A stretch of 64,000 nucleotides of DNA. Origin: an uncultured Pirellulaceae bacterium (GTDB lineage: Bacteria; Planctomycetota; Planctomycetia; Pirellulales; Pirellulaceae). Both the position numbers and the translations under genes were made by a program. Positions 1-13,037 of the stretch are shown one piece after another. The stretch is taken from assembly GCA_905480545.1 (NCBI GenBank), contig CAJQQR010000085.1, positions 1 through 64,000 on the forward strand, in the 5' to 3' direction. The notes under the pieces were generated by a model, which saw only the letters and a list, made by a program, of their open reading frames with translations, had not been told where the DNA came from and did not search any database. The first letter of the stretch is position 1; every line of letters starts with the position of its first letter.

Positions 1-2
1 CT

Positions 3-251
3 ATTCCGCAGGTTAAAGTGACATTGGAAATTTGCAATGGTGATCGACCGGTGTTTTTTACCGGAATTATTGCCAAGCAAGTTCGCGCTGATTGGATCAC
101 GCTTGAGATTCCTCCGTTGGATGCTTGGCGAAAGGAGATGAGCTGGCTCACGCCGCCGCAAAGAACTCGCTTTCAGCAAGCCGAGTTCTTTGCCATGCTG
201 CAGAGGGAGATTCCGAAACGGATCCAGCTGCTGCGAAGCAAAAAGCAATAA
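3..251 (+). CDS. C-terminal part of an unidentified protein (cut by window edge)
   Basis: The reading frame is open from the window edge to a TAA at 249-251, so this is most likely the last 82 or so residues of a longer gene. A GTG at 18 could be a start but nothing marks it as one. The visible part has a beta-rich stretch (VTLEICNGDRPVFFTG) followed by a basic helical tail containing PPLDAWRKEMSWLTPPQRTRF and ending RIQLLRSKKQ. I do not recognise the family. It shows no tyrosine-recombinase C-terminal motif, so it is not evidence for an integron integrase, although it sits just left of the cassette array. Confidence 0.5.
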   Translation: MPQVKVTLEICNGDRPVFFTGIIAKQVRADWITLEIPPLDAWRKEMSWLTPPQRTRFQQAEFFAMLQREIPKRIQLLRSKKQ

Positions 252-497
252 CGACTTCCCCAAGTCGTTTCAAATTAACCCAAAACCACAAAACGCGTTG
301 GATAGAATCTTATCGTTCCGTACGCTGCTGCTTACATCGCAAGAAAATGCAGAAAGTCAGCCGAATTTAGCTTGAGGTCGACCCCAAAAAGCACGAAAAT
401 ATCAGCGAAGAAATAATTTTAAAAAAATGGCGATCGCCAAAGTGTCGAACCATCGTTCGGTTCCCATACTTTCAGACACTTTGGCTGCCAGAAAAAC
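252..497. other. Intergenic stretch at the left border of the cassette array
   Basis: No convincing gene lies here. It is A-rich around 398-428 and ends in a two-tier hairpin (436-485). It shares none of the conserved attC block found at 1078, 1920, 2660, 3379 and 4077. The first cassette boundary at 498 is therefore not preceded by an attC of the same family. An attI-like site or the chromosomal flank is the natural reading. Confidence 0.5.
436..485. other. Two-tier hairpin next to the first cassette boundary
   Basis: A perfect 11-bp inverted repeat, GCCAAAGTGTC (436-446) and GACACTTTGGC (475-485), encloses a second inverted repeat, GAACC (447-451) and GGTTC (459-463). No T-tract follows, so it is a poor rho-independent terminator. 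It ends 12 bases before the GTT at 498 that opens the array. It may be a divergent recombination-site stem or a processing hairpin of the upstream gene; the sequence does not decide between these. Confidence 0.5.
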
Positions 498-508
498 GTT
501 AGACGACC
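498..508 (+). other. First cassette boundary (R'-like GTTAGACGACC)
   Basis: The 11 bases are exactly complementary to the R'' arm at 1064-1074, so recombination by the integron pathway would cut between G498 and T499. The toxin stop codon begins at the next base (509-511). The sequence to the left does not match the attC family, so this may be the attI/cassette junction. Confidence 0.6.
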
Positions 509-793
509 TCAGAGTTTGGTGATGTTACGATCCCCCGGGATGACTCGTAGGATTTCTACGGTGTCGCCATGTTTACGATGGAAGGTGACGTAACGTCCTA
601 TGAAGTTCCAACGCACATCGCTTCCCAAGAGCGGACGTAATTCACCCATTTCCGGTTGCGACGCCAAAAGCAAACACTTCGCTTCAATCTTTTCAACCCA
701 AGACACAGCTGCGTCTGGCTTATCTCGCGAAATGAATTGCAGAATGTCAATCAAATCTCGACGTGCGGCTGTCGAATAGAGGGGTTTCGTCAT
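509..793 (-). CDS. parE: ParE/RelE-family toxin, cassette 1
   Basis: A 94-aa protein of the ParE/RelE toxin superfamily. Members either inhibit DNA gyrase (ParE) or cleave mRNA on the ribosome (RelE); which applies cannot be told from sequence alone. Family features visible are an N-terminal helix pair with RDLIDILQFISRDKPDAA, then WVEKIEAKCLLLASQPEMGELRP, then beta strands ending FIGRYVTFHRKHGDTVEILRVIPGDRNI. It overlaps the antitoxin by 4 nt (ATGA at 790-793), so the two are translationally coupled. The stop codon abuts the cassette boundary at 498-508. It is close in pattern to the toxins at 2793-3086 and 3512-3796, which suggests cassette duplication or repeated capture of one family. Confidence 0.85.
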   Translation of the reverse strand: MTKPLYSTAARRDLIDILQFISRDKPDAAVSWVEKIEAKCLLLASQPEMGELRPLLGSDVRWNFIGRYVTFHRKHGDTVEILRVIPGDRNITKL

Positions 794-1026
794 CCGTTGG
801 TTGCTTCTGCTGCCATTGCCTTCAATTGTGCGAACACTGTGTCGTGATCGTGCAACTCTCCATTATCGGCTTGGTCAATTCCGACCTGTACTGCTTCGCG
901 CAGCTTCTCATTCGATACCAACAGACGCACCCCTTCGGATACGGCCTCTTGAATCGAACCAAACCTGCCGTTACTGACCAATGCCTCAATGGCCGACCGT
1001 TGATCTTGTGGTAATTGGATGTCCAT
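790..1026 (-). CDS. parD: ParD-like antitoxin, cassette 1
   Basis: About 78 aa from the ATG at 1026; a GTG at 1035 is an alternative that adds three residues. It has a short N-terminal strand (MDIQLPQDQ), then a helix-turn pattern typical of ribbon-helix-helix ParD antitoxins (AIEALVSNGRFGSIQEAVSEGVRLL), then an acidic C-terminal tail that would wrap the toxin. It precedes the toxin with a 4-nt overlap, the usual antitoxin-first order. The start lies about 40 bases inside the R'' arm of attC 1, so its promoter must lie in or beside that attC or in the neighbouring cassette. Such antitoxins usually autorepress the operon together with the toxin. Confidence 0.8.
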   Translation of the reverse strand: MDIQLPQDQRSAIEALVSNGRFGSIQEAVSEGVRLLVSNEKLREAVQVGIDQADNGELHDHDTVFAQLKAMAAEATNG

Positions 1027-1063
1027 TTTGCTCACTCGGATGGATACTCAAACACGACGCGAC

Positions 1064-1208
1064 GGTCGTCTAACATGGTTTTTACGCAGGGCCCTTCGGG
1101 TACACCTTCGATGTGGTGCTGGCCTCGCTCTCATTATACAATCAAATCTGATTGAGGACATCTTCGCGTTGAAAGCGGCGGTGTCGTAAAAACCTTCCGT
1201 TGTCGGTC
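1064..1208 (+). repeat. attC site 1
   Basis: R'' GGTCGTCTAAC (1064-1074), spacer, L'' GGTTTTTACG (1077-1086), a conserved stem with mini-hairpin GCCCTTCGGG (1091-1100), a central loop CAATCA/TGATTG (about 1139-1153), L' CGTAAAAACC (1185-1194), and R' GTTGTCGGTC starting at 1199. Taking L'' as TTTTTACG and L' as CGTAAAAA, the spacers are 4 and 6 nt. The canonical attC asymmetry is 5 and 6 nt, with the larger spacer on the R' side, so this supports left-to-right orientation. R'' matches the cassette 1 start perfectly over 11 bases. Confidence 0.78.
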
Positions 1209-1213
1209 AGAGA

Positions 1214-1909
1214 GTGAATGAAATACGGCGTCCTATTTTCAGCGCTGTCACTTCTTCTCGCCTTCTCGCCTTCTACGCATTCGCGTCCGGCGGCTGGTTC
1301 CTGCTGCTTGCGTGGCCCGCGATCAGCTTCGGCGTCATTGGCCTCGCTTACCTAACCTTCGGTCATCGCGTCTTTGGGAAACGCCCCGATGGCTCAATGG
1401 CGTTTGCTTCGGTTGCGATTCTGCTTCCGTACTTGCTCTACCTGTGGGGCGTATGGCACATCATTCGTCTGTTATCCCGGGAACCCGCACACAACACACT
1501 GGTTGACGGCGTTCTTATTGGTCGTCGCCTCCTTGCGGCCGAACTTCCTGCTGGCACGCAAACCGTCGTTGACCTCACTTCCGAATTCCCCGAACCTTCA
1601 GCACTGCGATCTGTGTCCAACTATGTCGCTGCACCAATGCTGGACGCTTCCGTGCTACCACCAGAATCGTTGGCTGATCTGGCCTCTCAAATTGCAACTG
1701 CCGAAACGCCCCTGTACATTCACTGTGCACAGGGTCACGGTCGAACCGGACTGGTGGCCGCACTTTTTCTTCTGGCACATGGCGACGCTGACACCCCTGA
1801 CACAGCGATTGAAATGATCCAATCATCACGTCCGTTGGTCGGCCTGAATGGCGTTCAGCGTGCCTCCTTGTTGGCCGCGTCAAAACTGCTGCCATCCAGC
1901 GCGGTCTGA
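1214..1909 (+). CDS. Membrane-anchored tyrosine/dual-specificity phosphatase-like protein, cassette 2
   Basis: 231 aa. Two hydrophobic segments (about residues 17-45 and 62-85) are followed by a soluble domain. The soluble domain carries the cysteine phosphatase P-loop HCAQGHGRTG near residues 169-178, which fits the CX5R signature of DSP/PTP enzymes. The active-site loop should therefore face the cytoplasm, where it would remove phosphate from a protein or small-molecule substrate; the substrate is unknown. The start codon is 6 bases after the cassette boundary arm, and the stop TGA (1907-1909) lies inside the R'' arm of attC 2, so the gene fills its cassette exactly. It is the only plus-strand gene in the array. 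By eye it is more GC-rich than its neighbours, which fits separate ancestry. Confidence 0.75.
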   Translation: MNEIRRPIFSAVTSSRLLAFYAFASGGWFLLLAWPAISFGVIGLAYLTFGHRVFGKRPDGSMAFASVAILLPYLLYLWGVWHIIRLLSREPAHNTLVDGVLIGRRLLAAELPAGTQTVVDLTSEFPEPSALRSVSNYVAAPMLDASVLPPESLADLASQIATAETPLYIHCAQGHGRTGLVAALFLLAHGDADTPDTAIEMIQSSRPLVGLNGVQRASLLAASKLLPSSAV

Positions 1910-2055
1910 CCGACAACATGGTTTTTACGCTGAGGCCCTTCGGGCACACCTTGGCTCTTTGGCAACGGGCCTTGGCCTTGGTACAATTTCACGTAATTCA
2001 GACATCGTTCGATTCGTTGAGGACGGGTGTCGTAAAAACCTTCCGTTGTCGGTCG
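1905..2055 (+). repeat. attC site 2
   Basis: R'' arm TCTGACCGACAAC (1905-1917), L'' GGTTTTTACG, mini-hairpin GCCCTTCGGGC (1935-1945), L' CGTAAAAACC (2031-2040), TTCC spacer, and R' GTTGTCGGTC at 2045. The R'' arm is a perfect 13-base complement of the start of cassette 2 (1199-1211). The middle differs from the other attCs (TTGGCTCTTTGG instead of TTCGATGTGG), so it is the most divergent stem of the family. Confidence 0.76.
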
Positions 2056-2379
2056 CTAGTTCTTTGTGATTTCGACGTCCATGTCCTGGCCGCCACGCAA
2101 GACTCGAACGACCTCGATCGCATCCTCTCTTTCGATGTAGAACACGACATGGTTGCGGAAATCCTTCACCAGCTTCGTCCGCACGCCCGCAAGATCGGGC
2201 ACACTTGTGACAAACGGAGAGACACTTTCGGGGAACAATGCCAAGCCCTTGATTGTTTGTTCGGCTCTTTCAAGAAATCGCAGCGCGGCATCAATACTGC
2301 CGTCCGCAATGTACATTGCGTGCAATTCGACATCCTCGATGGCCTTGGGCCGTCGAGTAATTGGTTTCCGATTCGACAA
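2056..2379 (-). CDS. ParE/RelE-like toxin, cassette 3 (different subfamily)
   Basis: 107 aa. The pattern fits the ParE/RelE superfamily: a helical N-terminal half with IDAALRFLERAEQTIKGLALFPES, then KLVKDFRNHVVFYIEREDAIEVVRVLRGGQDMD near the C-terminus. It is clearly more distant from the three other toxins of the array. The start is a TTG directly after the antitoxin TAA (no gap), and the stop lies next to the R' arm at 2045-2055. The molecular target (gyrase or mRNA) cannot be told. Confidence 0.78.
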   Translation of the reverse strand: MSNRKPITRRPKAIEDVELHAMYIADGSIDAALRFLERAEQTIKGLALFPESVSPFVTSVPDLAGVRTKLVKDFRNHVVFYIEREDAIEVVRVLRGGQDMDVEITKN

Positions 2380-2619
2380 TTATTTGACGCTTTTTGAAAC
2401 GACGCGTTCTCTAATTGCCTGCCACTCTGCATCCGTCCACGGTTCAGCCTCGCCGCTCGATATGCCTGCCATTAGAGCTTGTTCAATCTCGCCTTGCTTT
2501 TCGTTGGCAGCTGCTACCAGCGCGACAATGAATTCACTCGGATTTGCGTATCCGCCCTCTTTGGTTCCTTGATCTACGAATTGCTTCAGATGATCTGGTA
2601 ACTCGATTGGTACATTCAT
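2380..2619 (-). CDS. Antitoxin partner of cassette 3
   Basis: 79 aa. It starts MNVPIELPDHLKQFVDQG with a later NPSEFIVALVAAANEKQGEIEQAL segment, the strand-helix-helix pattern of ParD/CopG-type antitoxins, and has an acidic C-terminal part (SSGEAEPWTDAEWQ). It sits directly upstream of the toxin with no intergenic base and presumably neutralises it by binding and represses the shared promoter. The start is about 27 bases inside the R'' arm of attC 3, the same layout as the other three modules. Confidence 0.75.
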   Translation of the reverse strand: MNVPIELPDHLKQFVDQGTKEGGYANPSEFIVALVAAANEKQGEIEQALMAGISSGEAEPWTDAEWQAIRERVVSKSVK

Positions 2620-2644
2620 TGAATTAACACTTTCTCGTATGGTC

Positions 2645-2793
2645 CGCGACCTACAACATAGTTTTTACGCTAAGGCCCTGCGGGCACACCTTCGATGTGG
2701 TACTGACTTCGCTACCATTGTACAATCAATCCGAATTCAATCCACCTTCGCTTTGGTTGCAACGGTGTCGTAAAAACCTTCCGTTGTGCGACC
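2645..2793 (+). repeat. attC site 3
   Basis: R'' arm GCGACCTACAAC (2646-2657), L'' GTTTTTACG (2661-2669), mini-hairpin GCCCTGCGGGC, conserved TTCGATGTGG block, L' CGTAAAAACC (2769-2778), TTCC spacer, and R' GTTGTGCGACC at 2783. R'' matches the start of cassette 3 (2045) with one mismatch in 12. The toxin stop codon of cassette 4 (2793-2795) touches the R' arm. Confidence 0.76.
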
Positions 2794-3086
2794 TAGATGT
2801 TTCGCATGTCACGATTGCCGTGAATGACGCGAGACACCTCGATGCCCCCTTCGGTCGCGCGGAAGAAAATCACGTAGTCTCCAACGCTGATTGACCGGGC
2901 ACCTGGTACACCAAATTTTGGTCGCAATTCGCCCATGTTAGGCTGGTTCGCAATTGCTTCGCACGTCTCCCGAATCTTGCGCAACCAATTACGTGCCGCC
3001 TCCGGCTTGTCCCTCGCGATATATTCAACAATGCCGAATAAATCGTCGTCCGCCTCCGGTGCGTAGGTAACGTTTACCATTACCAT
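2793..3086 (-). CDS. parE: ParE-family toxin, cassette 4
   Basis: 97 aa ParE/RelE-superfamily protein. Visible conserved features are ADDDLFGIVEYIARDKPEAA, then NWLRKIRETCEAIANQPNMGELRP, then SVGDYVIFFRATEGGIEVSR and HGNRD. It shares the DKPxAA, IExxC, MGELRP and YVIFFR-type motifs with the toxins of cassettes 1 and 5. It overlaps the antitoxin stop by one base (TAATG at 3086). It would act in the cytoplasm as the stable toxin of a type II module. Confidence 0.85.
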   Translation of the reverse strand: MVMVNVTYAPEADDDLFGIVEYIARDKPEAARNWLRKIRETCEAIANQPNMGELRPKFGVPGARSISVGDYVIFFRATEGGIEVSRVIHGNRDMRNI

Positions 3087-3328
3087 TAGCCTTTGCCATT
3101 TTCAATTTCGCGAATTCGCTCTTCCGCACGTTGGTAGACAGTTTCGGCTGGAACACCTTTTCCGGCATCCAATTGATCGAATCCCTTTCGTGCTTCAGCG
3201 TGGAGCGTTTCCCTCGCTTGTAACAAACGCAATCCTTCCGCCAGCACATCGGACTCGTTCAGGAACCTCTTTTCGGAGACCATTCGTTGAACGAACGGGA
3301 CCAAATCGCTTGGTATTTCTGTTGTCAT
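3086..3328 (-). CDS. parD: ParD-like antitoxin, cassette 4
   Basis: 80 aa. It begins with a ParD-like MTTEIPSDLVPFVQRMVSEK strand-helix, followed by NESDVLAEGLRLLQARE, the family's hallmark second helix. The C-terminal tail is charged and ends IREIENGKG. It is translationally coupled to the toxin downstream by a one-base overlap. The start lies about 37 bases from the R'' arm of attC 4. Confidence 0.82.
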   Translation of the reverse strand: MTTEIPSDLVPFVQRMVSEKRFLNESDVLAEGLRLLQARETLHAEARKGFDQLDAGKGVPAETVYQRAEERIREIENGKG

Positions 3329-3364
3329 GACTATCTCGATTTTGACCTGATTGGCTGCGCTACC

Positions 3365-3511
3365 GGTCGTAGAACATGGTTTTTACGCAAGGCCCCTTCG
3401 GGGACATCTTCGGCGTGGTTTTGACGGCGACTCCATTATACAATTAAATTAGATTCACAACATCTTCGCTTCGGCTGCGTTGATGTCGTAAAAACCTTCA
3501 GTTGTGCGTCC
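3365..3511 (+). repeat. attC site 4
   Basis: R'' arm GGTCGTAGAAC (3365-3375), L'' GGTTTTTACG (3378-3387), mini-hairpin GGCCCCTTCGGGG, ATTATACAATTAAATT centre, L' CGTAAAAACC (3487-3496), and R' GTTGTGCGTCC at 3501. R'' pairs with the start of cassette 4 (2783) with two mismatches in 11, a weaker match than in cassettes 1-3. Confidence 0.76.
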
Positions 3512-3796
3512 CTAGAGTGAACGGATGTCGCGATCTTCATCGACGACTCGCGCGACTTCGATACCGCTCTTGATTTGTCTAAAGAATATCAGGTAGCGAC
3601 CAACAACGCAGCTGCGGATGTGTGGGCCGTACTCAGGTCGTCGTTCGCCAAACTCTGGCGTGGTTGCAATAAGCTTGCACTTCTCTTCGATTTTTTCGAC
3701 CCAATTTGCGGCGGCGATGGGCTTGTCGCGTGGGATGTAATCGTAGAAGTCCGACAGATCCTGCTGGGCGGACGGGGCGATCATCAATTTTGCCAT
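3512..3796 (-). CDS. parE: ParE-family toxin, cassette 5
   Basis: 94 aa. The protein reads APSAQQDLSDFYDYIPRDKP, then NWVEKIEEKCKLIATTPEFGERRP, then GRYLIFFRQIKSGIEVARVVDEDRDIRSL, the same motif set as the toxins of cassettes 1 and 4. The stop TAG (3512-3514 on the complement) touches the R' arm at 3501-3511. It overlaps the antitoxin gene by one base (TAATG). It is a type II toxin; gyrase is the family's best-known target but this is not provable here. Confidence 0.86.
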   Translation of the reverse strand: MAKLMIAPSAQQDLSDFYDYIPRDKPIAAANWVEKIEEKCKLIATTPEFGERRPEYGPHIRSCVVGRYLIFFRQIKSGIEVARVVDEDRDIRSL

Positions 3797-4038
3797 TAAT
3801 CGGCTGACTCCAATGCCTTCTTTGCGCGTTCCCGCAACTCTGCGAACACCACCTCACCATCGATTCCCTGGCCCGCGTCCAGTTCATCAATTCCCTCTTG
3901 GATTTCCGCCCGCAACTGTTGCTGGCTTCGCAATAATTGCACGCCGGCAGCCACGGCTGCTTCTGCAGATTCAAACTGTCCAGATGCCACCAATCCCTCG
4001 ACGAATTGAATCGCATCGGAACTGAACTGAATATTCAT
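3796..4038 (-). CDS. parD: ParD-like antitoxin, cassette 5
   Basis: 80 aa from the ATG at 4038. This start is chosen because a good GGAGG Shine-Dalgarno lies just upstream (complement of about 4041-4046), and because a longer reading from 4068 would run into the attC R'' arm. It has a ParD-type N-terminus (MNIQFSSDAIQFVEGLVASG) and the AEAAVAAGVQLLRSQQQL helix typical of the family, then an acidic tail (GIDELDAGQGIDGEVVF). It is coupled by a one-base overlap to the toxin. Confidence 0.85.
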   Translation of the reverse strand: MNIQFSSDAIQFVEGLVASGQFESAEAAVAAGVQLLRSQQQLRAEIQEGIDELDAGQGIDGEVVFAELRERAKKALESAD

Positions 4039-4061
4039 GGAGTCCTCCAACCGGCGGTACC

Positions 4062-4200
4062 GGGTCACGCAACATCGGTTTTACGCAATGGCCCTTCGGG
4101 CACACCTTCGATGTGGTGAAGGCCAAGCTGGCGTTATATAATCAGACGATGTTAGCGACATCATCGCGTCGGTAGCGTAGATAACTGCCGCTATGTGCAC
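4062..4200 (+). repeat. attC site 5, decayed right half
   Basis: The left half is intact: R'' ending ACGCAAC (4067-4073), L'' GGTTTTACGC (4077-4086), mini-hairpin GCCCTTCGGGC (4091-4101) and TTCGATGTGG. The right half has drifted: where others read CGTAAAAACCTTCCGTTG it reads CGTAGATAACTGCCGCTA, so the GTT crossover triplet is lost. R'' matches the cassette 5 start (3501) only with gaps. It is the terminal, probably inactive site of the array. Confidence 0.65.
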
Positions 4201-4258
4201 TGGCCGCATGGTTGATTGCTGAGCTTTGAGTGCGGTTCAATATCAAAAGGAGTCAAGG

Positions 4259-5443
4259 ATGCAACGACGTGAATTTGTTGGTGGCGTAGCTGTAACATCT
4301 TTGTTGGGTTCATCCGCGTTCTGCGCCGGTTCAACAGAATCAAAATTTCGAGTCGGTGTTATTGGGCACACTGGCCGCGGAGACTATGGTCACGGTCTGG
4401 ATACCGTTTGGAAACGGGTTGCAGAGACTCAGATCGTTGCTGTAGCTGATGGTAATGAAAAAGGTCTAGCTAAGGCAAAGGAAAAGACGGGTGCGTTGAA
4501 TGGGTACACCGACTATCGGAAAATGCTGACGGAACAGAGGCCTGATATTGTTGCGGTGTGTCCTCGCCATCCGGACCAGCATGCGGAAATGGCGATCGCT
4601 GCAGCTCAGGCCGGTGCGAAAGGTATCTACTGCGAGAAGCCGTTTGTTCGGACTCCGGCCGAAGCGGATGCGGTGATTGCCGCTTGTGAAAAACACGGCA
4701 CAAAATTGGCTGTTGCCCATCGCAATAGGTACCACCCAGCCATGCAAACGATCGGCAAGCTGATTGCTGGCAAGGCGATTGGTCGAATTCTTGAAATTCG
4801 TGGTCGCGGCAAAGGTGATCGACGTGGAGGCGGAGAGGATCTATGGGTTTTGGGCTGTCATATTTTTAACATGATCAACTACTTTGCCGGCGCGCCAAGT
4901 TCGTGTTCGGCTGTAATGTTGCAAGGCGGTCGCGACGTCGTGGCTGCCGACGTCAGACCGGGTAATGAAGCGTTGGGTCCACTGGCGGGGAATGAAATTC
5001 ACGCCCGGTACGAAATGGAACGGGGGATCATTGCGTACTTTGATTCGATTGCGAACGACGGTACGAAGAACCAGGGCTTTGGTTTGCAGATCGTCGGCAG
5101 TGAGGGGCGGATCTTGGTGCAGGCGGACTTGAATCCCGTGGCATACTTGCAGCGCGGCAACCCTTTTTCACCAGCCAGGCCCAATGCCTGGGAGCCGATT
5201 ACCTCAGATGGCGTGGGTGAGTCAAATGTTGACGATGTCAGTTTTGATCTTGTGAGTCACCACGTCACGGCGGCGCAAGATCTGGTCAGTGCGATTGGAA
5301 GCAACCGAGCTCCGTTGTGTGACGCGACGCAGGGGCGGACGACAGTTGAAATGATCTGCGCGGTGTTTGATTCTCATCGGCGCGGCGGGAGGGCTGTTTC
5401 GTTCCCGTTGGAGGAACGCGGGAATCCGTTGAGGAAATTTTAG
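4259..5443 (+). CDS. Gfo/Idh/MocA-family oxidoreductase with Tat signal
   Basis: 394 aa from the ATG at 4259, chosen because AAAGGAG sits just upstream. It starts with a twin-arginine signal (MQRREFVGGVAVTSLLG, then SSAFCAG), so it is exported folded with its cofactor. The NAD(P)-binding fold starts at FRVGVIGHTGRGDYG. CEKPF near residue 125 is the family's conserved EKP motif, followed by a C-terminal alpha/beta domain (GCHIFNMINYFAGAP). Members oxidise or reduce sugars and related polyols; the substrate is not predictable. It is the first gene right of the cassette array and is not itself in a cassette. Confidence 0.85.
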   Translation: MQRREFVGGVAVTSLLGSSAFCAGSTESKFRVGVIGHTGRGDYGHGLDTVWKRVAETQIVAVADGNEKGLAKAKEKTGALNGYTDYRKMLTEQRPDIVAVCPRHPDQHAEMAIAAAQAGAKGIYCEKPFVRTPAEADAVIAACEKHGTKLAVAHRNRYHPAMQTIGKLIAGKAIGRILEIRGRGKGDRRGGGEDLWVLGCHIFNMINYFAGAPSSCSAVMLQGGRDVVAADVRPGNEALGPLAGNEIHARYEMERGIIAYFDSIANDGTKNQGFGLQIVGSEGRILVQADLNPVAYLQRGNPFSPARPNAWEPITSDGVGESNVDDVSFDLVSHHVTAAQDLVSAIGSNRAPLCDATQGRTTVEMICAVFDSHRRGGRAVSFPLEERGNPLRKF

Positions 5444-5483
5444 ACGTGGTTGTGATGTCCGGCTGACGATGCAGCTTTGTGCG

Positions 5484-5500
5484 ACGGACTTTCAGTCCGT
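5484..5500. repeat. Short perfect hairpin ACGGACT-TTC-AGTCCGT
   Basis: Seven-base arms with a 3-base loop, about 40 bp downstream of the oxidoreductase stop. No T-tract follows. It resembles the short extragenic palindromes that recur in planctomycete genomes, but only this copy was noticed in the window. Confidence 0.4.
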
Positions 5501-5594
5501 GATACACCAAAAAAGACGGAACTGTCTTATTCGGACCGGTCAGAAAAGCGTCATTGCTCACTCTTCGCGTTGCGGATCCTGTTTCTCAACATGT

Positions 5595-5645
5595 ATTTCC
5601 CGGTGTAGGGCATTTCCCGGTATAGGGCATTTCCCAGCGTAGGGC
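5595..5645. repeat. Three tandem copies of a 17-bp unit
   Basis: Units are ATTTCCCGGTGTAGGGC (5595-5611), ATTTCCCGGTATAGGGC (5612-5628) and ATTTCCCAGCGTAGGGC (5629-5645). Copies differ at one to three positions. Confidence 0.8.
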
Positions 5646-5762
5646 ATCTGTCGTAAGCTGGTCAAAATCGCCGGCAGCGAGTGCGAGAAGGCGCGTGCGT
5701 GCCATGCTCGATGTTGTATTCGACCACAGAGTCTATCTCCTTGACGCCAACGCCTCGGAAGC

Positions 5763-5818
5763 GGATCGGAGGATCGGAAGAGCGGAGGATCGGAGGATCG
5801 GAGGATCGGAAGAGCGGC
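5763..5818. repeat. GGATCGGA / GAAGAGCGG tandem tract
   Basis: Repeated 8-base GGATCGGA units are interleaved with two copies of GGATCGGAAGAGCGG. Part of the unit equals the start of a common sequencing adapter (GATCGGAAGAGC), but the tract is a regular tandem repeat, so a genuine simple repeat is more likely than contamination. Confidence 0.7.
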
Positions 5819-6397
5819 GGAACGACTGTGCGATCTGCCGTGTTGTGGCGTCGCGTTACCGGTGAGTTCCTCTCACACCGCCAGCCCCTGTTCGACATCT
5901 ACGATTCGATTGAGGTGCTGAATCTGGCCCCAAACGCTGATTTTGACATTTTGTGAACGATTCTTAGTTTGAGCGAAGGGGAGCAATACACCGACTACCG
6001 GCATTCAGCCCAAAACTTGAATCCACATGTCAAACGCATTTTTTTGCGAAAGAGAACTAAGAAATGTTTCAATTGTTGCTCTAGCGGTGGATTTCTGTGG
6101 GGCTAGCAGCGATGGTTAAAATCATTGTCTTAGCTAAAGCTATTGAGTTTCATCATGTCCTTGGATTCAAATCGCGACGTCAAATCTTCCCGTTGATCGA
6201 ACAGTCGTGTTGTGTTGTTAGACTTTTGCTTTGCCACGCAGGCCAAGCCTTAACCCCATATTTCCTGCCTTGCTTGGTGCCGTTGGGTTGTAGATCCAAT
6301 CCATTGTTGCAGAGAGCCAGCGGGAACCGTTTCAAAAACTGCTGGTATTTTTTGGTCGTCTCCTCTCAATTGATAAGTTGGCCACCGGTTGCCATGT

Positions 6398-7150
6398 TTA
6401 TTGCCATTTCATCGGATTGACTTTGAAGTACTTTACTAAAAGCGAATATAAGTCGTGGTGCTTTTTGCGTAGCTTTCCCGGTTGTTCAAAAAAGGTTTCC
6501 GTGGCAACAGCAAAATATTCTGCCTTATTGGTCGCGCCGTAATGATCAAGCAGCGTCCGTCGACCGGATTTTTTGGCCGCGACCAGCTCTTGGTAACCGT
6601 GATCAACGACCTTGTCCCATTGATCGTGTGAAGGCTGATCATCAAAAGTGATGTTTCCACCCATGAAGCCATCAAGTCCGTCGAGTGCATGCGCGAATTC
6701 ATGAATCACAACATTGGATCCATCGTCCTCGTTGCGGCAACCTCGAAGTGCGTCGCGCCAGGAAAGAACGATTGGTCCACCTAGCCAGGCCTCGCCTGAA
6801 CGGTGTTGAGCTCCGAAAGTGACTCCGTCATTTGCCTCTCGGCGAAATGTGTCCGGGAAAACTAGAATTGTTTTTACATTGTCAAAATAGAAATCATCTA
6901 CGCCTAGCAACATCATGCACGCTTGCGCTGCGATCGTAACTTTCATTTCAACGGTAACATCCAATCCTTCTAAGCCTTCCCAGTTTTTTTCGGCAACAAA
7001 AATCTTGGTGCGGTCTTGCAGTGCTTGTATCTCATTCTGGCTTAGCTTTTGGCAAAGTCGAACATTGCGGTTTAGATGCAAATCCCATTTCTCAGGCCAC
7101 GGTTGAGCGAGGATTTTTTTAAGCCTGCGTTTACGAAACCATCCAAACAA
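6398..7150 (-). CDS. mtfA: MtfA-like zinc metallopeptidase (M90)
   Basis: About 250 aa from a TTG at 7150. The frame stays open to another TTG at 7309 but contains no ATG or GTG start that fits. I prefer 7150 because LFGWFRKRRLKKIL is the usual N-terminus of this family and AAGG lies 5-8 bases upstream. The zinc site HEFAHALD and a downstream EYFAVATETFFEQP segment supplying the third ligand region are both present, along with the conserved EKNWEGLEGL and AAQACMMLLG blocks. In E. coli MtfA is a cytosolic peptidase linked to sugar-uptake control through Mlc; here only the peptidase activity is inferred. Confidence 0.8.
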   Translation of the reverse strand: MFGWFRKRRLKKILAQPWPEKWDLHLNRNVRLCQKLSQNEIQALQDRTKIFVAEKNWEGLEGLDVTVEMKVTIAAQACMMLLGVDDFYFDNVKTILVFPDTFRREANDGVTFGAQHRSGEAWLGGPIVLSWRDALRGCRNEDDGSNVVIHEFAHALDGLDGFMGGNITFDDQPSHDQWDKVVDHGYQELVAAKKSGRRTLLDHYGATNKAEYFAVATETFFEQPGKLRKKHHDLYSLLVKYFKVNPMKWQ

Positions 7151-7655
7151 TTGATGCCTTACTAAAGAACAGAGATGAGGATCAGTGGGCGGAAAACCAA
7201 ACGCGACAGACGGTAGGAGCGGATGCGAAGAAAACTGAGCGTATTCACTCGCCGCGCCAGCTGTTGATGCGTGGTGATAATAGTATTCCAAACCAACATG
7301 GATCTGCAAGTCTTGCCAGGGAAATGTGTCCGGCTTGTCGGATCGGATGCTGTAGGTTGTGTGGGCGGTAGCTGGAGGAACAATGGGTGTTCAGGAATTT
7401 CTTCGTTCAGCATGGAATAAACGGCACTGAGTGAGGTTCTTTCGTTCTGATTGTTTTTTCATGATATTCTGAACCCTCGTCTTTATACGTGCAAAAGTGT
7501 GACGATTTCCTTCAACCCTTTCGGTTGATCTGTTTTGGTTTTAAATTAGTAGACTCGAGTTTGCGTTTTTGATTTGCGTACTTTTCCGGGCATGCGAACT
7601 TCAACGCTGAATTTACCTTCTTGGCATGATCAGACGAATTCCTCAATAACCTTCG

Positions 7656-9440
7656 ATGTCACTTATTGTTCAAAAATTTGGCGGTACAAGCGTTGCCGAC
7701 AGTGAAAAGATTAAAGCGGCTGCTCGAAAAGCAGTTCGCGCTCACCAGAACGGCCACCAAGTTGTCATGGTGGTCAGTGCGATGGGTAAGAATACTGACT
7801 TGCTCGTTTCGTTGGCGCAGGAAGTTTGCGAACGACCGCAGGCCCGTGAAATGGACATGCTTTTGTCGACCGGTGAGCAGGTTAGCGTTGCCCTGATGGC
7901 AATGGCCATTCATTCGCTCGGGTACAAAGCGGTAAGTCTAACCGGCGGTCAAATCGGAATAAAAACGGATAGCACGCATACAAAGGCTCGAATCGAATCG
8001 ATCACGACCGATCGGATGCAGCGTCTGCTAAGCGAAGGAAATATCGTGATTGCGGCGGGTTTTCAGGGAATTGACAACGACCTTAACATCACAACGTTGG
8101 GACGTGGTGGTAGTGACACCACCGCCGTTGCATTGGCCGCGGTATTGCAAGCGGATGCATGTGAAATCTACACGGATGTCGATGGCGTGTTTACGACCGA
8201 TCCGCGAGTTTTGCCGGAGGCCCGCAAAACCAAACAGGTGAGCTATGACGAGATGTTGGAGCTGGCAAGTTTGGGCGCAGGGGTGATGCACAGTCGTTCG
8301 ATCGAATTTGCGAAAAAGTTTGATGTCCCAATCCATGTTCGAAGTAGTCTGAGCGATACACCCGGTTCTTTGATTTGGGATAAGACACAGGATTCAAGTC
8401 GAGCTGTTTCCGGTGCGGCGGTGACAAAGGATGAAGCCCGCATCACGGTCATCAATGTGCCTGACCGTCCCGGAGTCAGCCATGATTTGTTTTCCGACAT
8501 TGCGGACCGTCATGTAACCGTCGACATGATCGTGCAAAACGCAGGGTCGAAAGGGAATGCGAATATTTCTTTTACTGTTCCGAAAGACGAATTGGAAACC
8601 ACGCTCGACTCGGTAAACAAATCAATTGCAGAGTTTGGAAGCGGCGCGGTAGATTTCTGTGACAACGTTTCCAAAATATCGGTTGTGGGTGCTGGAATGG
8701 CAGAGCAAACCGGCGTGGCGAATTCGATGTTCGATTCGCTAGTAGCCGCTGGTATCAATATGGAGATGATCACCACCAGTGAAATCAAAATCTCTGCTTT
8801 GGTTTCCCGCGATGATATGTTGTCGGCACTAAGGGCGGTTCACAGTCGATTCGAATTGCATGTCGATCCACCGGGTGCCGTTGACTTGGACCTTGATCAC
8901 TTCACGCACAAGCGTAGTGCCGATGCAGTCGAAGTTGTCTCGCGTTTGCAAGGCGTTGGAATGGAAACGCTTTTCATTGACGATATTAATTTGGACGAAA
9001 CTCAATCGAGCGTGGCAATTTTCGGTGTGCCGAATCAACCCGGAATCGCCGCAAAACTCTTTGATCGTATCGCAAGCGAAGGGATTTTTGTTGATATGAT
9101 TGTGCAGAGTTATCCTATCGAAAACGAAGCGGTGATCGGCTTTACCGTTCCTGTGACGTCAATCGAAAAAGCAGTTTCGGTCGCGGAACAAGTGGCCAAA
9201 GATTTAGGATGCGAAAAGGTGACGTCGCGAAAAGAGATTGCTAAGCTCTCGGTTTCGGGAATTGGACTTAGAAGTCATACTGGCGTTGCGATTGGAATGT
9301 TCAAGGCTCTTGCGGAAGCAGGAATCAATATCCAGATTATGAACACGAGTGAAGTTCGGGTGAACGTCATCGTTGATCGTTTGGACGGTAAGAACGCGTT
9401 GAAGTGTCTTCGTGACACGTTTGATAGCTCAATTCATTAA
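7656..9440 (+). CDS. lysC: Aspartate kinase with two tandem ACT pairs
   Basis: 594 aa; it phosphorylates L-aspartate, the first step toward lysine, threonine and methionine. The kinase domain (about residues 1-250) starts LIVQKFGGTSVAD and contains TLGRGGSDTTAVALA and YTDVDGVFTTDPR. The C-terminal half holds four ACT domains as two similar pairs: VPDRPGVSHDLFSDIADRHV with VGAGMAEQTGVANSMFDSL, then VPNQPGIAAKLFDRIASEGI with SGIGLRSHTGVAIGMFKAL. Typical bacterial aspartokinases have one pair and about 400-460 residues. The extra pair suggests a second effector site or altered assembly for feedback inhibition. It has its own upstream gap of about 240 bp. Confidence 0.93.
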   Translation: MSLIVQKFGGTSVADSEKIKAAARKAVRAHQNGHQVVMVVSAMGKNTDLLVSLAQEVCERPQAREMDMLLSTGEQVSVALMAMAIHSLGYKAVSLTGGQIGIKTDSTHTKARIESITTDRMQRLLSEGNIVIAAGFQGIDNDLNITTLGRGGSDTTAVALAAVLQADACEIYTDVDGVFTTDPRVLPEARKTKQVSYDEMLELASLGAGVMHSRSIEFAKKFDVPIHVRSSLSDTPGSLIWDKTQDSSRAVSGAAVTKDEARITVINVPDRPGVSHDLFSDIADRHVTVDMIVQNAGSKGNANISFTVPKDELETTLDSVNKSIAEFGSGAVDFCDNVSKISVVGAGMAEQTGVANSMFDSLVAAGINMEMITTSEIKISALVSRDDMLSALRAVHSRFELHVDPPGAVDLDLDHFTHKRSADAVEVVSRLQGVGMETLFIDDINLDETQSSVAIFGVPNQPGIAAKLFDRIASEGIFVDMIVQSYPIENEAVIGFTVPVTSIEKAVSVAEQVAKDLGCEKVTSRKEIAKLSVSGIGLRSHTGVAIGMFKALAEAGINIQIMNTSEVRVNVIVDRLDGKNALKCLRDTFDSSIH

Positions 9441-9669
9441 CAAACTGTCGACAGTCGAGTGGGGCGTGAGTGGCGTGAGTGGCGTTGCAAAAATGGTAAA
9501 CTGTTTCGGCAGAGGCGAGCTTTGCATTTATTTGGCTCGTGAAGCCATTTAGTCCATCAACAGGCGGTTTCATTTGTTTCGGCAACGATTGGAATCATTT
9601 TGTGGTTTCCGTGCTCCAAGTGCGTTGGCTATTCTGTAGCACGATCATGAGATCAATTCTTTAACAACG

Positions 9670-10839
9670 TTGATCATTAACCATCCGCATTGGTCCAGCG
9701 ATTTGACTATTCCCCGATCTGTTTACGTTCATGTTCCGTTTTGCCGGCACCGCTGTGGATATTGCAACTTTACTTTGGTCGCCAACCGAGATGAATGGGT
9801 CGAAGGTTATCTAAACGCGATCGAGAAGGAGATCAGTGCTGTAAACGTTGGCATGCCGGCACCTCAAGAGGTTGATACCGTTTTTCTAGGCGGGGGAACT
9901 CCAAGTCATCTTTCTGCTGATCAGCTGGAGCGATTGATCTACATCTTGACCAATAAATTTTTGTTTGCATCTGAAATTGAATTTTCAATCGAAGCGAATC
10001 CTAACGATATCACGGCTGAAAAAGTTGAATTGCTATCATCGCTTGGTGTCAATCGATTTAGTTTAGGCGTGCAATCCTTTAATTCTAAGAAGCTCCAAAC
10101 GCTTGAACGTGACCATGATGCACAGGTTGTGCGGGACGCAATCGATACCATTCGCAAACGCGTCGCTGATATCTCGATCGATTTGATCATCGGTTCCCCT
10201 GGGGAAACGCTTGAGTCCTGGCAAAACGATTTGGATGATGTATTGTCCATCAACCCAACACATATTTCGACCTACAGCCTAACGATCGAAAAGGGAACGC
10301 AATTTTGGAATCGATGGAATCGAGGTGATTTGAATGAAGTATCGGAGGACTCCGCGGCCGATTACTATGAAACTGGAATTGATTTTTTGACCAACAACGG
10401 TTTCGACCATTATGAAGTCTCGAATTTTTCCCGCTACGGATTTCGATGTCGGCATAACGAAAATTACTGGTTGGGTAAGAGTTATTACGGCTTTGGTCCC
10501 GGGGCTGCAAGTTATATTGACGGGATGCGAGGAATGAATCATCGAAGCACGTCGCGGTACCTTCAGCTTGTGCAATCAGGGCAATCCCCTACAGTCGAAT
10601 CGGAATTGGTTGACGCCGAAGCATCGGCCCGAGAAAAACTGATTTTCGGGTTACGTCGAATTCAGGGGATTGATGTTAATGCGTATCGTGAAGAAACGGG
10701 ATACACTGTCTTTGAGTTGGCCGAGAAAGATATGAATCGATTGCTTGTGCAGAAATTGCTGGAGCTTGAAGATCAGACGCTGCGTCTCACTCGTTCGGGC
10801 CTGTTGGTAAGCGATAGCATCTGGCCTCTCTTTTTATAA
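9670..10839 (+). CDS. hemW: HemW-like radical SAM protein
   Basis: 389 aa starting at a TTG. The radical SAM cluster motif CRHRCGYC is at residues 25-32, preceded by SVYVHVPFC as in the HemN/HemW family. FLGGGTPSHL, SIEANPNDIT and GVNRFSLGVQSF are further conserved blocks. HemW is thought to act as a heme chaperone rather than as the oxygen-independent coproporphyrinogen oxidase; CRHRCGYC has the CxxxCxxC spacing shared by both, and the roughly 390-aa length fits HemW better than HemN (about 450). It stands alone, 229 bp downstream of lysC on the same strand. Confidence 0.85.
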   Translation: MIINHPHWSSDLTIPRSVYVHVPFCRHRCGYCNFTLVANRDEWVEGYLNAIEKEISAVNVGMPAPQEVDTVFLGGGTPSHLSADQLERLIYILTNKFLFASEIEFSIEANPNDITAEKVELLSSLGVNRFSLGVQSFNSKKLQTLERDHDAQVVRDAIDTIRKRVADISIDLIIGSPGETLESWQNDLDDVLSINPTHISTYSLTIEKGTQFWNRWNRGDLNEVSEDSAADYYETGIDFLTNNGFDHYEVSNFSRYGFRCRHNENYWLGKSYYGFGPGAASYIDGMRGMNHRSTSRYLQLVQSGQSPTVESELVDAEASAREKLIFGLRRIQGIDVNAYREETGYTVFELAEKDMNRLLVQKLLELEDQTLRLTRSGLLVSDSIWPLFL

Positions 10840-11222
10840 AATGTCATCATGCAATCTTTGTTAATTATCTGTACGGCGGCGCCATTGTATTTAGATGCGA
10901 TACAGGACGATGTAACGCGAGAGAAAACGTCCCAAACGGAAGGTTTTCGGCAGTCGAGTAGATGGCAAGAGTTGGGAGCGGTGTGATGGTGCTTGCCCAC
11001 TCATGGAATGTAAAGATGGCGGCTCGGTTAGAAATAGAAATTGCATTTATTGGTGGTTCACGCGAATTTAGTAGGCGTCGGCGAATGAGTCCTCTTCAGA
11101 TGGTGACGATTTCGGAGTTGAAGTGTTCAATGCAACCTCGCTCCAAAGGGGTATGATGAAGCGAAAGAATAGACAGGTTTTAAATTGTCGTCCTTTAACC
11201 CATATGTACGATCGAGTCTGAA
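10840..11222. other. Intergenic region upstream of the sulfatase gene
   Basis: 383 bases with no supported gene, RNA or terminator by eye. It should contain the promoter of the sulfatase gene. Confidence 0.4.
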
Positions 11223-13037
11223 ATGATTTCATTGAAATGTTGTTCCCTCAACCCGTGCTTGTTGCTGACCCTATCGCTGTTGACGTTTGAGTCTACCTCG
11301 GCGGAAGAGCCGTTTGCATCGACGGCAAAACAAATTTCTAAACGGCCAAATGTCATTGTGATTTTGACCGACGATCAAGGCTGGGGAGATCTTAGCGTCA
11401 ATGGCAACACCAATCTTTCAACGCCCAATATTGATCAGTTGGCACGCGAGGGTGCGTCATTTGATCGGTTTTTCGTTTGCCCGGTCTGTTCACCGACTCG
11501 GGCCGAGTTTTTGACGGGTCGTTATCATGCAAGGAGTGGTGTCTACAGTACATCGGCTGGCGGCGAACGAATGAATTTGGATGAAGTTACCATTGCAGAC
11601 ACATTCAAGGCGGCCGGGTATCAGACGGCAGCATTCGGAAAATGGCATAACGGGATGCAGTATCCCTTTCATCCAAATGGACGTGGGTTTGACGAGTTTT
11701 ACGGATTTTGCTCGGGGCATTGGGGGAATTACTTCGATCCCATGCTGGAGCACAATGGAAGGATCGTAAAGGGAAACGGTTTTGTGATCGACGATCTTAC
11801 GGACCGTATGATTGATTTTGTAGAATCCAATAAGGAGCAACCGTTTTTTGCCTATCTTCCATACAATACTCCACATTCGCCCATGCAAGTTCCCGATCGA
11901 TGGTGGGATAAGTTCAAAGACAAAGAGCTTGGGATGCGAAATCGAAATCCCAAAAAAGAAAACGTTGGCCATACGCGAGCAGCACTAGCGATGTGCGAAA
12001 ACATTGACTGGAATGTCGGTCGGATTTTAAAAAAGCTTGATGAATTGGGTTTAACGGATGATACGATCGTTGTTTATTTTTGCGACAATGGACCCAACGG
12101 TGCGCGGTGGAATGGAGGCATGAAAGGAAGAAAGGGATCAACCGATGAAGGTGGGGTTCGATCTCCACTTTTCGTGCGGTGGCCGGGGAAAATTTCGAAA
12201 AGCCAACGTGTAAATCAGATTTCTTCTGCAACTGATCTTTTGCCAACTTTGGCAACGCTTTGCGGCGTTCCGCTAGTGGGAAAGAAAAAATTGGATGGCA
12301 TTAATCTTTCAAGGTTGCTTTTAAACGCAAAACCTGACGCAAGTAAAACGCCGACCGACCGGATGATTATCAGTCATTGGCGTAACCGAGTCAGCGTTCG
12401 GACACAACGGCTTCGATTTGACAATCAAGGGGCGTTGTTTGACATGGACACTGATCCCGGACAAAGCAAGAACATTGCGGATCAGAATGTTGCAAAAGTC
12501 AAAAAGTTTCAATCGGTCGTAGATGACTTTCGAGAAAATGTCCTCAAGGGCTACGACGTTGATCGTCGCGCATTTGTATTGGGACATCCTGACTACTCGA
12601 TAACACAGATTCCCGCTCGCGATGGGAAGGCATTTGGGAACATCACGCGTTCCAATCGGTTTCCAAATTGTTCGTTTTATACGAACTGGAAAAGTGTAAA
12701 TGACAAGATCACATGGGATGTTGAGGTCGGCCAATCAGGCCGATATCGCGTAGAACTTTATTACACTTGCAGGGCAAAAAATGTCGGTACGGTCATCGAA
12801 TTAACTTGTGGTAAAAGCAAACTGCGACGCAAGATTTCAAATGCCCATGATTCAGAACAGTTTGGCCATGAGCAAGATCGAGTCAAACGCTCGGAATCCT
12901 ATGTCAAGGAATTCAAAGCAATGGATATGGGCATGCTCTATTTGGAAGAAGGCAAATCGGAATTGAAGCTTCAAGCTGTTGAAATTCCTGGCGACGAAGC
13001 CATTGACTTTCGCCTCTTGATGTTTGAGCGGGAATAG
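11223..13037 (+). CDS. Secreted arylsulfatase-type sulfatase
   Basis: 604 aa with an N-terminal signal peptide (hydrophobic LLLTLSLLTF, cleavage near TSAEE). The active-site motif CSPTR (Cys near residue 89) is the type converted to formylglycine by FGE. Metal-ligand motif LTDDQGWGD, AFGKWHNG and CDNGPNG complete the sulfatase core. After about residue 450 a beta-rich segment (GRYRVELYYTCRAKNVG, LTCGKSKLRRK) follows, perhaps a carbohydrate- or polymer-binding module. It hydrolyses a sulfate ester, probably of an algal polysaccharide; the substrate is unknown. No sugar-degradation partner genes are adjacent. Confidence 0.9.
   Translation: MISLKCCSLNPCLLLTLSLLTFESTSAEEPFASTAKQISKRPNVIVILTDDQGWGDLSVNGNTNLSTPNIDQLAREGASFDRFFVCPVCSPTRAEFLTGRYHARSGVYSTSAGGERMNLDEVTIADTFKAAGYQTAAFGKWHNGMQYPFHPNGRGFDEFYGFCSGHWGNYFDPMLEHNGRIVKGNGFVIDDLTDRMIDFVESNKEQPFFAYLPYNTPHSPMQVPDRWWDKFKDKELGMRNRNPKKENVGHTRAALAMCENIDWNVGRILKKLDELGLTDDTIVVYFCDNGPNGARWNGGMKGRKGSTDEGGVRSPLFVRWPGKISKSQRVNQISSATDLLPTLATLCGVPLVGKKKLDGINLSRLLLNAKPDASKTPTDRMIISHWRNRVSVRTQRLRFDNQGALFDMDTDPGQSKNIADQNVAKVKKFQSVVDDFRENVLKGYDVDRRAFVLGHPDYSITQIPARDGKAFGNITRSNRFPNCSFYTNWKSVNDKITWDVEVGQSGRYRVELYYTCRAKNVGTVIELTCGKSKLRRKISNAHDSEQFGHEQDRVKRSESYVKEFKAMDMGMLYLEEGKSELKLQAVEIPGDEAIDFRLLMFERE

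Follow-up and report, generated by a model that had tools for sequence, protein, structure and literature searches.

A one-sided mini-hairpin as the probable third arm of attC-type sites in Pirellulaceae cassette arrays linked to a non-IntI tyrosine recombinase

The mini-hairpin found in the attC-like sites described here is probably a third arm of these recombination sites in its shortest version; the sites, of the attC type, would belong to an integron-like cassette system that is served by a tyrosine recombinase other than IntI, and in which an arm with a GNA loop acts as a mark of polarity. The stretch of DNA analysed (‘the window’, 64,000 nucleotides) forms the start of contig C85, in a genome assembled as 300 contigs. 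At the level of sequence, comparison with relatives documents the architecture of the sites, the conservation and covariation of the hairpin, an exchange of cassettes at GTT and the linkage of the arrays to the recombinase.

Reading along the plus strand of the window, an attI-like primary site (434–500) has its exchange point in the GTT at 498–500 and is followed by an array of five cassettes (499–4206). On its R'' side, site 1 has the sequence GGTCGTCTAAC, the reverse complement of which, GTTAGACGACC, makes up the 11 bases from 498 to 508; a layout that recurs at the array heads of relatives. The five attC-like sites, all on the plus strand, lie at about 1064–1209, 1908–2054, 2648–2792, 3366–3510 and 4064–4206 (sites 1 to 5, respectively). 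Each begins with AACAT followed by the stem, which reads GGTTTTTACG in sites 1, 2 and 4 and as one-base variants in sites 3 and 5, and sites 1–4 end with CGTAAAAACC-TTC(C/A)-GTT. The exception is site 5, the last of the array, where the right arm has decayed; we therefore count it as a hairpin-bearing left arm and not as a full site. Site 1, of the attC type and three-armed, has its right arm at 1180–1201, with the left side of the inner helix (ACACC, 1102–1106, plus strand) pairing with GGTGT at 1180–1184; an assignment based on the sequence itself and on covariation of the first pair (A-T/T-A) in relatives. Comparison of window positions 1–12000 with Rfam gave zero matches. As to cargo, four of the five cassettes (within 509–4068) hold ParDE-like pairs encoded on the minus strand, against the direction of the array, and the fifth encodes a membrane phosphatase-like protein on the plus strand; Pfam recognises the four toxins, whilst two of the antitoxins fall near its cut-off and two go unrecognised.

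As first proposed, the mini-hairpin is present in all five sites of the window and in the left arm only, where it follows the stem GGTTTTTACG, a C and a linker of 3–4 nt. In site 1 it occupies 1091–1101 of the plus strand, slightly offset from the 1088–1100 at which it had been placed, and its bottom strand reads ACCCGAAGGGC, with a GAA triloop, three Watson–Crick pairs and an outer G-T on the top strand. The remaining four, also on the plus strand, are found at 1935–1945 (site 2, bottom strand GCCC-GAA-GGGC), 2675–2685 (site 3, GCCC-GCA-GGGC), 3393–3403 (site 4, CCCC-GAA-GGGG) and 4091–4101 (site 5, GCCC-GAA-GGGC). The stem of site 4 (CCCC/GGGG) thus differs from the GCCC/GGGC of sites 2, 3 and 5 by a compensatory swap of the outer pair, and in site 3 a loop base has changed with the pairing kept (bottom-strand GAA to GCA, still GNA), just as the original prediction had it. 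The loop itself was taken for a TTCG-type tetraloop but is a triloop, TTC on the top strand, or TGC in site 3; and the hairpin thought identical in sites 1, 2 and 5 has the same stem in sites 2, 3 and 5, site 1 having to make do with its three Watson–Crick pairs and the G-T. Taken as a string, the ten bases of the hairpin are unremarkable in the window (5 matches at up to one mismatch, versus 3.42 expected from shuffling): its significance lies in its fixed position and in its behaviour in relatives, not in how often the string occurs.

A second contig of the same genome, C114 (L016, read by eye), has one complete site with the hairpin (GCC-TTC-GGC) plus two decayed left arms with neither right arm nor hairpin; over the window and C114 together, six of eight left arms carry it. 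The C114 region (L016 700–2400) is a second hairpin array with an attI-like element of its own, mostly decayed. When whole sites were folded with nearest-neighbour energies, the bottom strands of sites 1–3 gave the outer stem as anticipated, but for those of sites 4 and 5 it was not the best fold. The two strands scored alike. As the hairpin is part of the best fold in some window sites only, we do not take fold energies as proof.

For the survey of relatives, 241 genomes of the family were searched with the right arm alone (GTCGTAAAAACCTTCNGTT, at most one mismatch), thus avoiding any selection of sites by their hairpin; matches were obtained in 43 genomes, and a reversed control pattern almost never matched. 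A recount on the stretches around arrays, allowing up to three mismatches and leaving out identical sites together with right arms that had fewer than 215 nt upstream or contained N, gave 514 distinct right arms. With both arms required within three mismatches, 35 of these had no left arm, and the other 479 sites divide into 424 short and 55 long. A hairpin, defined as a TNC loop on a perfect stem of 3 bp or more inside the first 22 nt after the left arm, is present in 366 of the 424 short sites, compared to none of the 424 in a window of the same size before the right arm and to a mean of 9 (maximum 19) in shuffled left windows; the one-sidedness seen in the window therefore extends to its relatives. 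Most of the surveyed sites are related by descent, and after removal of near copies the hairpin is found in 240 of 294 non-redundant sites. The 58 short sites that lack a perfect hairpin are mostly one substitution away from having it, with two possessing a TNNC tetraloop; since many hairpin-less short sites still pair with their array neighbours, the hairpin may be helpful and not required.

Across the sites with an intact stem (GCC/GGC in 294, GCCC/GGGC in 56), the loop reads TTC in 282, TGC in 34, TCC in 15, TAC in 13, CTC in 3, TTT in 2 and GTC in 1. It is therefore TNC in 344 of the 350, with the middle base being other than T in 62, the first base differing in 4 and the third in 2. With its outer bases fixed and the middle one free, the loop reads C(GNA)G on the bottom strand, with all four bases seen at N, and a GNA loop together with at least two G-C pairs is present on the bottom strand of 366 of the 424 short sites. 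DNA that combines two or more G-C pairs with a loop of this kind (GNA or GNNA) is described as forming extraordinarily stable mini-hairpins, with GCGAAGC melting at 78 °C (PMC4686876). The TNC loop of the top strand does not belong to this class, and the stable form should be that of the bottom strand. Nearest-neighbour DNA energies are equal for the two strands, the parameter set having no loop-specific (GNA) bonus, so the preference for the bottom strand rests on the GNA rule of the literature; G-T and A-C variants of the stem, compared by eye, are about equally frequent, and such exchanges do not tell the strand.

Covariation was assessed in the 294 non-redundant sites, 266 of which have a CTNCG core, with pairs counted by script and compared to 2000 shuffles; the MAFFT alignment (A6) places 3- and 4-bp stems out of register and was not used for these counts. 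Pair −2 is Watson–Crick in 256 of the 266 (246 C-G, 10 G-C; shuffled maximum 244) and pair −3 in 247 (189 G-C, 57 C-G, 1 A-T; shuffled mean 159, maximum 180), with a fourth pair, where present, being G-C in 40, T-A in 14 and C-G in 3. The first pair of the inner helix, ACACC/GGTGT, covaries too (A-T in 185 and T-A in 10 of the classified sites). Covariation of both stem and inner helix leads us to a bottom strand with two stacked helices, gapless along one side and accommodating the hairpin and a short linker on the other; in other words, a three-way junction. In the 55 long sites an arm of ~70 nt takes the hairpin's place, its base pairing as CCGCGGC/GCCGCGG, CCACGGC/GCCGTGG, TCGCGG/CCGCGA or GCCGCT/AGCGGC; in 41 of the 55 the first 16 nt can pair with the interior in a helix of 6 bp or more, versus 13% in shuffles, and a C(A/G)CC inner helix directly follows the arm in 39. 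As the hairpin turns into a long arm in this class, we regard it as the third arm of the junction. The sites of genome G062, of which there are four distinct types, have quite different stem letters. Three of the types nevertheless have an arm in the equivalent position, which in two of them ends in a TNC loop (TCCC-TTC-GGGA and TCCGC-TGC-GCGGA) and in one is longer; on inspection, no arm was visible in the fourth.

The sites have the general make-up of attCs: an imperfect inverted repeat with an AAC/GTT core, an unpaired central spacer and a variable inner part. Because each integron cassette brings its own start, pairing is to be expected between the R'' of one site and the R' flank, after GTT, of the site that precedes it, and across 42 loci we see this pattern; over 316 neighbouring pairs the two match at 6.99 of 8 positions (176 pairs being perfect), versus 4.42 of 8 for R'' and its own flank (359), 4.13 for that of the next site (318) and 4.27 for random flanks. 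The first site of an array pairs with the GTT upstream of the first gene, in an attI-like element where, in most cases, a conserved TGTCG box shortly precedes the GTT. The parts of an integron platform can thus be recognised from sequence, namely an attI-like primary site with GTT beside a recombinase gene, and cassettes made up of a gene and an attC. The complementarity indicates that cassette exchange occurs at GTT, in the manner of attC sites. We rejected this signature alone as proof of bottom-strand use, as an identical complementarity would result from exchange at R''; it is the array order, attI-gene-attC, that fits exchange at the R' end, the end used in integrons.

The 10-bp L stem is without bulge or mismatch in 341 of the 479 sites, with at most one mismatch in 426, and the extrahelical base that attCs have in the L box of the R''-L'' arm is missing from most armed sites. 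The hairpin sits ~10 bp into the arm, which, by our own mapping, we take to be where classical attCs have their second extrahelical base; given this position and the mostly bulge-free L stem, a polarity role resembling that of the extrahelical bases is a sensible reading. For integrons, the bottom strand of attC is reported as the recombined strand, with IntI discriminating between strands mainly by means of single extrahelical bases (PMC2727003), and a covariance model for the attCs of Planctomycetes exists (PMC8352920). Our search of the open-access literature, with subscription papers and preprints outside its scope, found neither attCs with such an arm nor, for planctomycetes, a cassette recombinase other than IntI.

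Upstream of the hairpin arrays, usually 445–832 nt before the first site and co-directional with it, lies a gene for a tyrosine recombinase; sometimes the arrangement is divergent, as in classical integrons (the loci examined include L290 of R. solitaria). All five array-linked recombinases tested score 177–204 bits with the IntI model TIGR02249, below its cut-off of 265, and 186–220 bits with the XerA/IntI-like model (cut-off 220). When aligned with IntI P0001, all five have a gap at the IntI additional domain (patch III / alpha-I2), with ~27 residues missing. This domain is given as a defining character of IntI (PMC9668308) and includes K209, Y210 and W219, which in the Vibrio enzyme contact the extrahelical G (PMC3053210). 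At their C-terminal end the array-linked enzymes have ~110 extra residues, predicted to fold into four strands and three helices (pLDDT 84.7; the model of the whole recombinase is weak, with a pLDDT of 65.2), for which we found no Pfam family, no sequence relative in the PDB (best E 0.33) and no PDB fold match under E 0.001. The structure alignments comprised 8 (A4) and 20 (A5) of the recombinases found. In the tree, from which 11 rows were thinned out and for which the class labels of L258, L220, L263, L151 and L129 were set by hand, the array-linked recombinases form a single clade (100/99) apart from IntI (100/100); sisterhood of the two is neither shown nor rejected (p-AU 0.407).

A profile of the C-terminal domain matches in 29 of the 241 family genomes, and 25 of the 29 have hairpin sites; that is, the domain is present in 25 of 43 site-bearing genomes versus 4 of 198 others (Fisher p 2e-18, odds ratio 67). 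Those four include G062, whose armed sites the search pattern misses, and in G006, an exception as regards the domain, there is a single pattern-matched site with more mismatches nearby. No C-terminal-domain recombinase was detected in 18 of the 43 site-bearing genomes, some of which are >95% complete (G146, G149, G154, G157). Among the 38 C-terminal-domain places listed, a co-directional array lies within 2.5 kb in 20, a divergent array in 5, and 13 have no matched array, three of them being those of G062. Some genomes contain several copies of recombinase and array (L267, L278, L240, L228), with three each in G151 and G161. A domain search of 392 genomes of the phylum gave three matches, two of them outside the family (G544 and G504), with no hairpin sites in the four stretches examined; G544, from another family of the class, has three copies of the domain (L373–L375), near which no armed sites were found. 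A recombinase with the domain is also encoded by a Myxococcota/Deltaproteobacteria groundwater MAG (L291 8956–10050), with no recognisable site in its 11 kb.

In the window, positions 1–251 (plus strand) encode the C-terminal end of the recombinase with its extra domain (ORF 3–251, profile match 9–251); the gene continues upstream on contig C76, the end of which (L023, minus strand) is identical to window 1–141. The combined frame (L023 1–1342, minus strand, plus window 1–251) contains one TAA and one TGA, the frames of relatives being uninterrupted; an intact array-linked gene is found, for example, in Rhodopirellula europaea 6C (L287), its product being 79% identical to the query protein. 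With two in-frame stops, the gene looks broken in this assembly; together with the decayed last site, this may mean that the window array is old, or that it relies on an enzyme encoded elsewhere. Just upstream of the recombinase there is a tRNA-Ala (ggc; L023 1844–1917, minus strand), a possible landing place for the platform; no tRNA was found in the six other head regions scanned.

We propose that a single bottom strand would fold to give the R box, an unpaired spacer, the 10-bp stem GGTTTTTACG/CGTAAAAACC and the inner helix ACACC/GGTGT. Between stem and inner helix, and on one strand only, the C(GNA)G mini-hairpin would protrude, followed by a CTAG-like linker, with the opposite strand running past without a gap. 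The strand to be recombined would be the bottom one, the fold of which the stable GNA hairpin may nucleate or lock. Being stable on that strand, one-sided and at a fixed distance from the crossover, the hairpin would also mark polarity, thus doing the job of the extrahelical bases; we are led to this by the combination of L stems that are mostly bulge-free and an enzyme without the region that reads an extrahelical base. Co-occurrence of arm and enzyme suggests that the recombinase, lacking the alpha-I2 region that holds the extrahelical G, would itself recognise the arm, most likely through its C-terminal domain.

The main alternative to a polarity mark is a role purely in DNA folding, whereby the GNA hairpin accelerates folding, insulates it or withstands nucleases, and makes no contact with protein; a possibility we take seriously but doubt. 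It would be in keeping with the resistance of GNA hairpins to heat and nucleases described in PMC4686876, and with the long-arm class, which retains an arm that has no GNA loop next to the junction. A mere folding aid, however, would need neither a fixed place at the junction nor one-sidedness, and the recombinase is without the base-reading region, whether through loss or from the outset, and possesses a further domain.

We think it unlikely that the sites are attCs on which an ordinary IntI of planctomycetes acts from another place in the genome, with the hairpin as an accessory. An intact IntI is indeed encoded on contig C79 of the window genome (about 409.5–411 bits), IntI is present in 30 of the 43 site-bearing family genomes, and IntIs are described as accepting varied attCs (PMC3053210). 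Its presence hardly depends on the sites, however, the figure for the other genomes of the family being 94 of 198 (odds ratio 2.6, p 0.011, versus the odds ratio of 67 for the other recombinase), and 13 of the 43 have no IntI match, including G142, G144 and G159 at 97–99% completeness. The attCs adjacent to IntI are also of another kind, ~82 nt long and with a single additional base in the L copy (in 93 classical attCs, chosen by their having such a base, it is G in 82, T in 10 and A in 1), and a TNC hairpin after the L copy was found in none of the 93. With classical attCs beside IntI, weak co-occurrence and no hairpins there, we disfavour IntI as the driver of the hairpin arrays. The original prediction of a one-sided structured element with a role in polarity thus keeps its plausibility, but its choice of a planctomycete IntI as the enzyme finds no support, the arrays being linked to a different tyrosine recombinase. 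Classical IntI integrons and the armed-site system often lie side by side in genomes of the family (L198–L217), with six IntI matches in G216.

Very improbable, to our minds, is a function of the hairpin in RNA—in control of translation start, termination or transcript stability, with no role in recombination; CTTCGG does resemble the UNCG tetraloop of RNA, and integron attCs can be transcribed, but in the tetraloop register GCC-TTC-GGC keeps just one C-G pair and TCGC-TCC-GCGA keeps none, the observed covariation being that of the triloop register. The arm, besides, has its fixed place between two helices of the site's DNA, and both strands carry genes of the cassettes. Still harder to credit is a neutral relic copied along with the cassettes: the array sites are related by descent, but the compensatory changes, a loop in which the middle base varies and its two neighbours do not, and the different stems of G062 speak against it.

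With the hairpin read as a third arm that marks polarity, the system can be set beside those already known. Shared with the integron attCs of the VCR and attC aadA type, and their IntI, are the AAC/GTT core, paired R and L boxes, an unpaired central spacer, a long inner region, a one-sided element on the R''-L'' arm, cassette exchange at GTT and the order attI-gene-attC; it differs in that the L stem of most armed sites is without an extrahelical base, a protruding hairpin or long arm being present instead, and in a recombinase that is not IntI and is without the IntI additional domain. Both this enzyme and IntI (TIGR02249) are tyrosine recombinases with a SAM_4-like N domain and an SPLDxL end motif, and the closest named models are XerA/IntI-like; unlike IntI, the array-linked enzyme scores below cut-off, is short of residues at the IntI insert, bears the C-terminal domain, falls in its own clade and is often co-directional with its array. 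Recombinases of the XerA/XerC/XerD type likewise have no IntI insert and an alignable catalytic core, but the enzyme described here is tied to hairpin-attC cassette arrays and has the C-terminal domain. The hairpin shares its GNA triloop, C-G closing and at least two G-C pairs (here on the bottom strand) with ultra-stable DNA mini-hairpins of the d(GCGAAGC) type, differing from these as a natural, conserved element of a recombination site, with predicted stability.

To our knowledge, strand choice on a folded attC is known only for IntI, via single extrahelical bases. We lean, if cautiously, towards a second kind of single-strand cassette integron: a non-IntI lineage, without the base-reading domain of IntI, that would recognise folded attCs, probably via its C-terminal domain, by the third arm of a three-way junction (a GNA hairpin or a long arm) and would run arrays of at least 26–27 cassettes in Rhodopirellula and elsewhere in the Pirellulaceae, next to ordinary integrons. 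If so, cassette capture would not be tied to IntI, and whole arrays in Planctomycetota could escape searches keyed to IntI and classical attCs; the requirements for polarity could moreover be tested directly in a system, be it sister or convergent, that relies on a structured arm. A small, stable polarity hairpin could also serve in the design of single-strand recombination sites. Beyond the array, at 5763–5832, the window contains an 8-base tandem repeat, GGATCGGA/AGAGCGGA.
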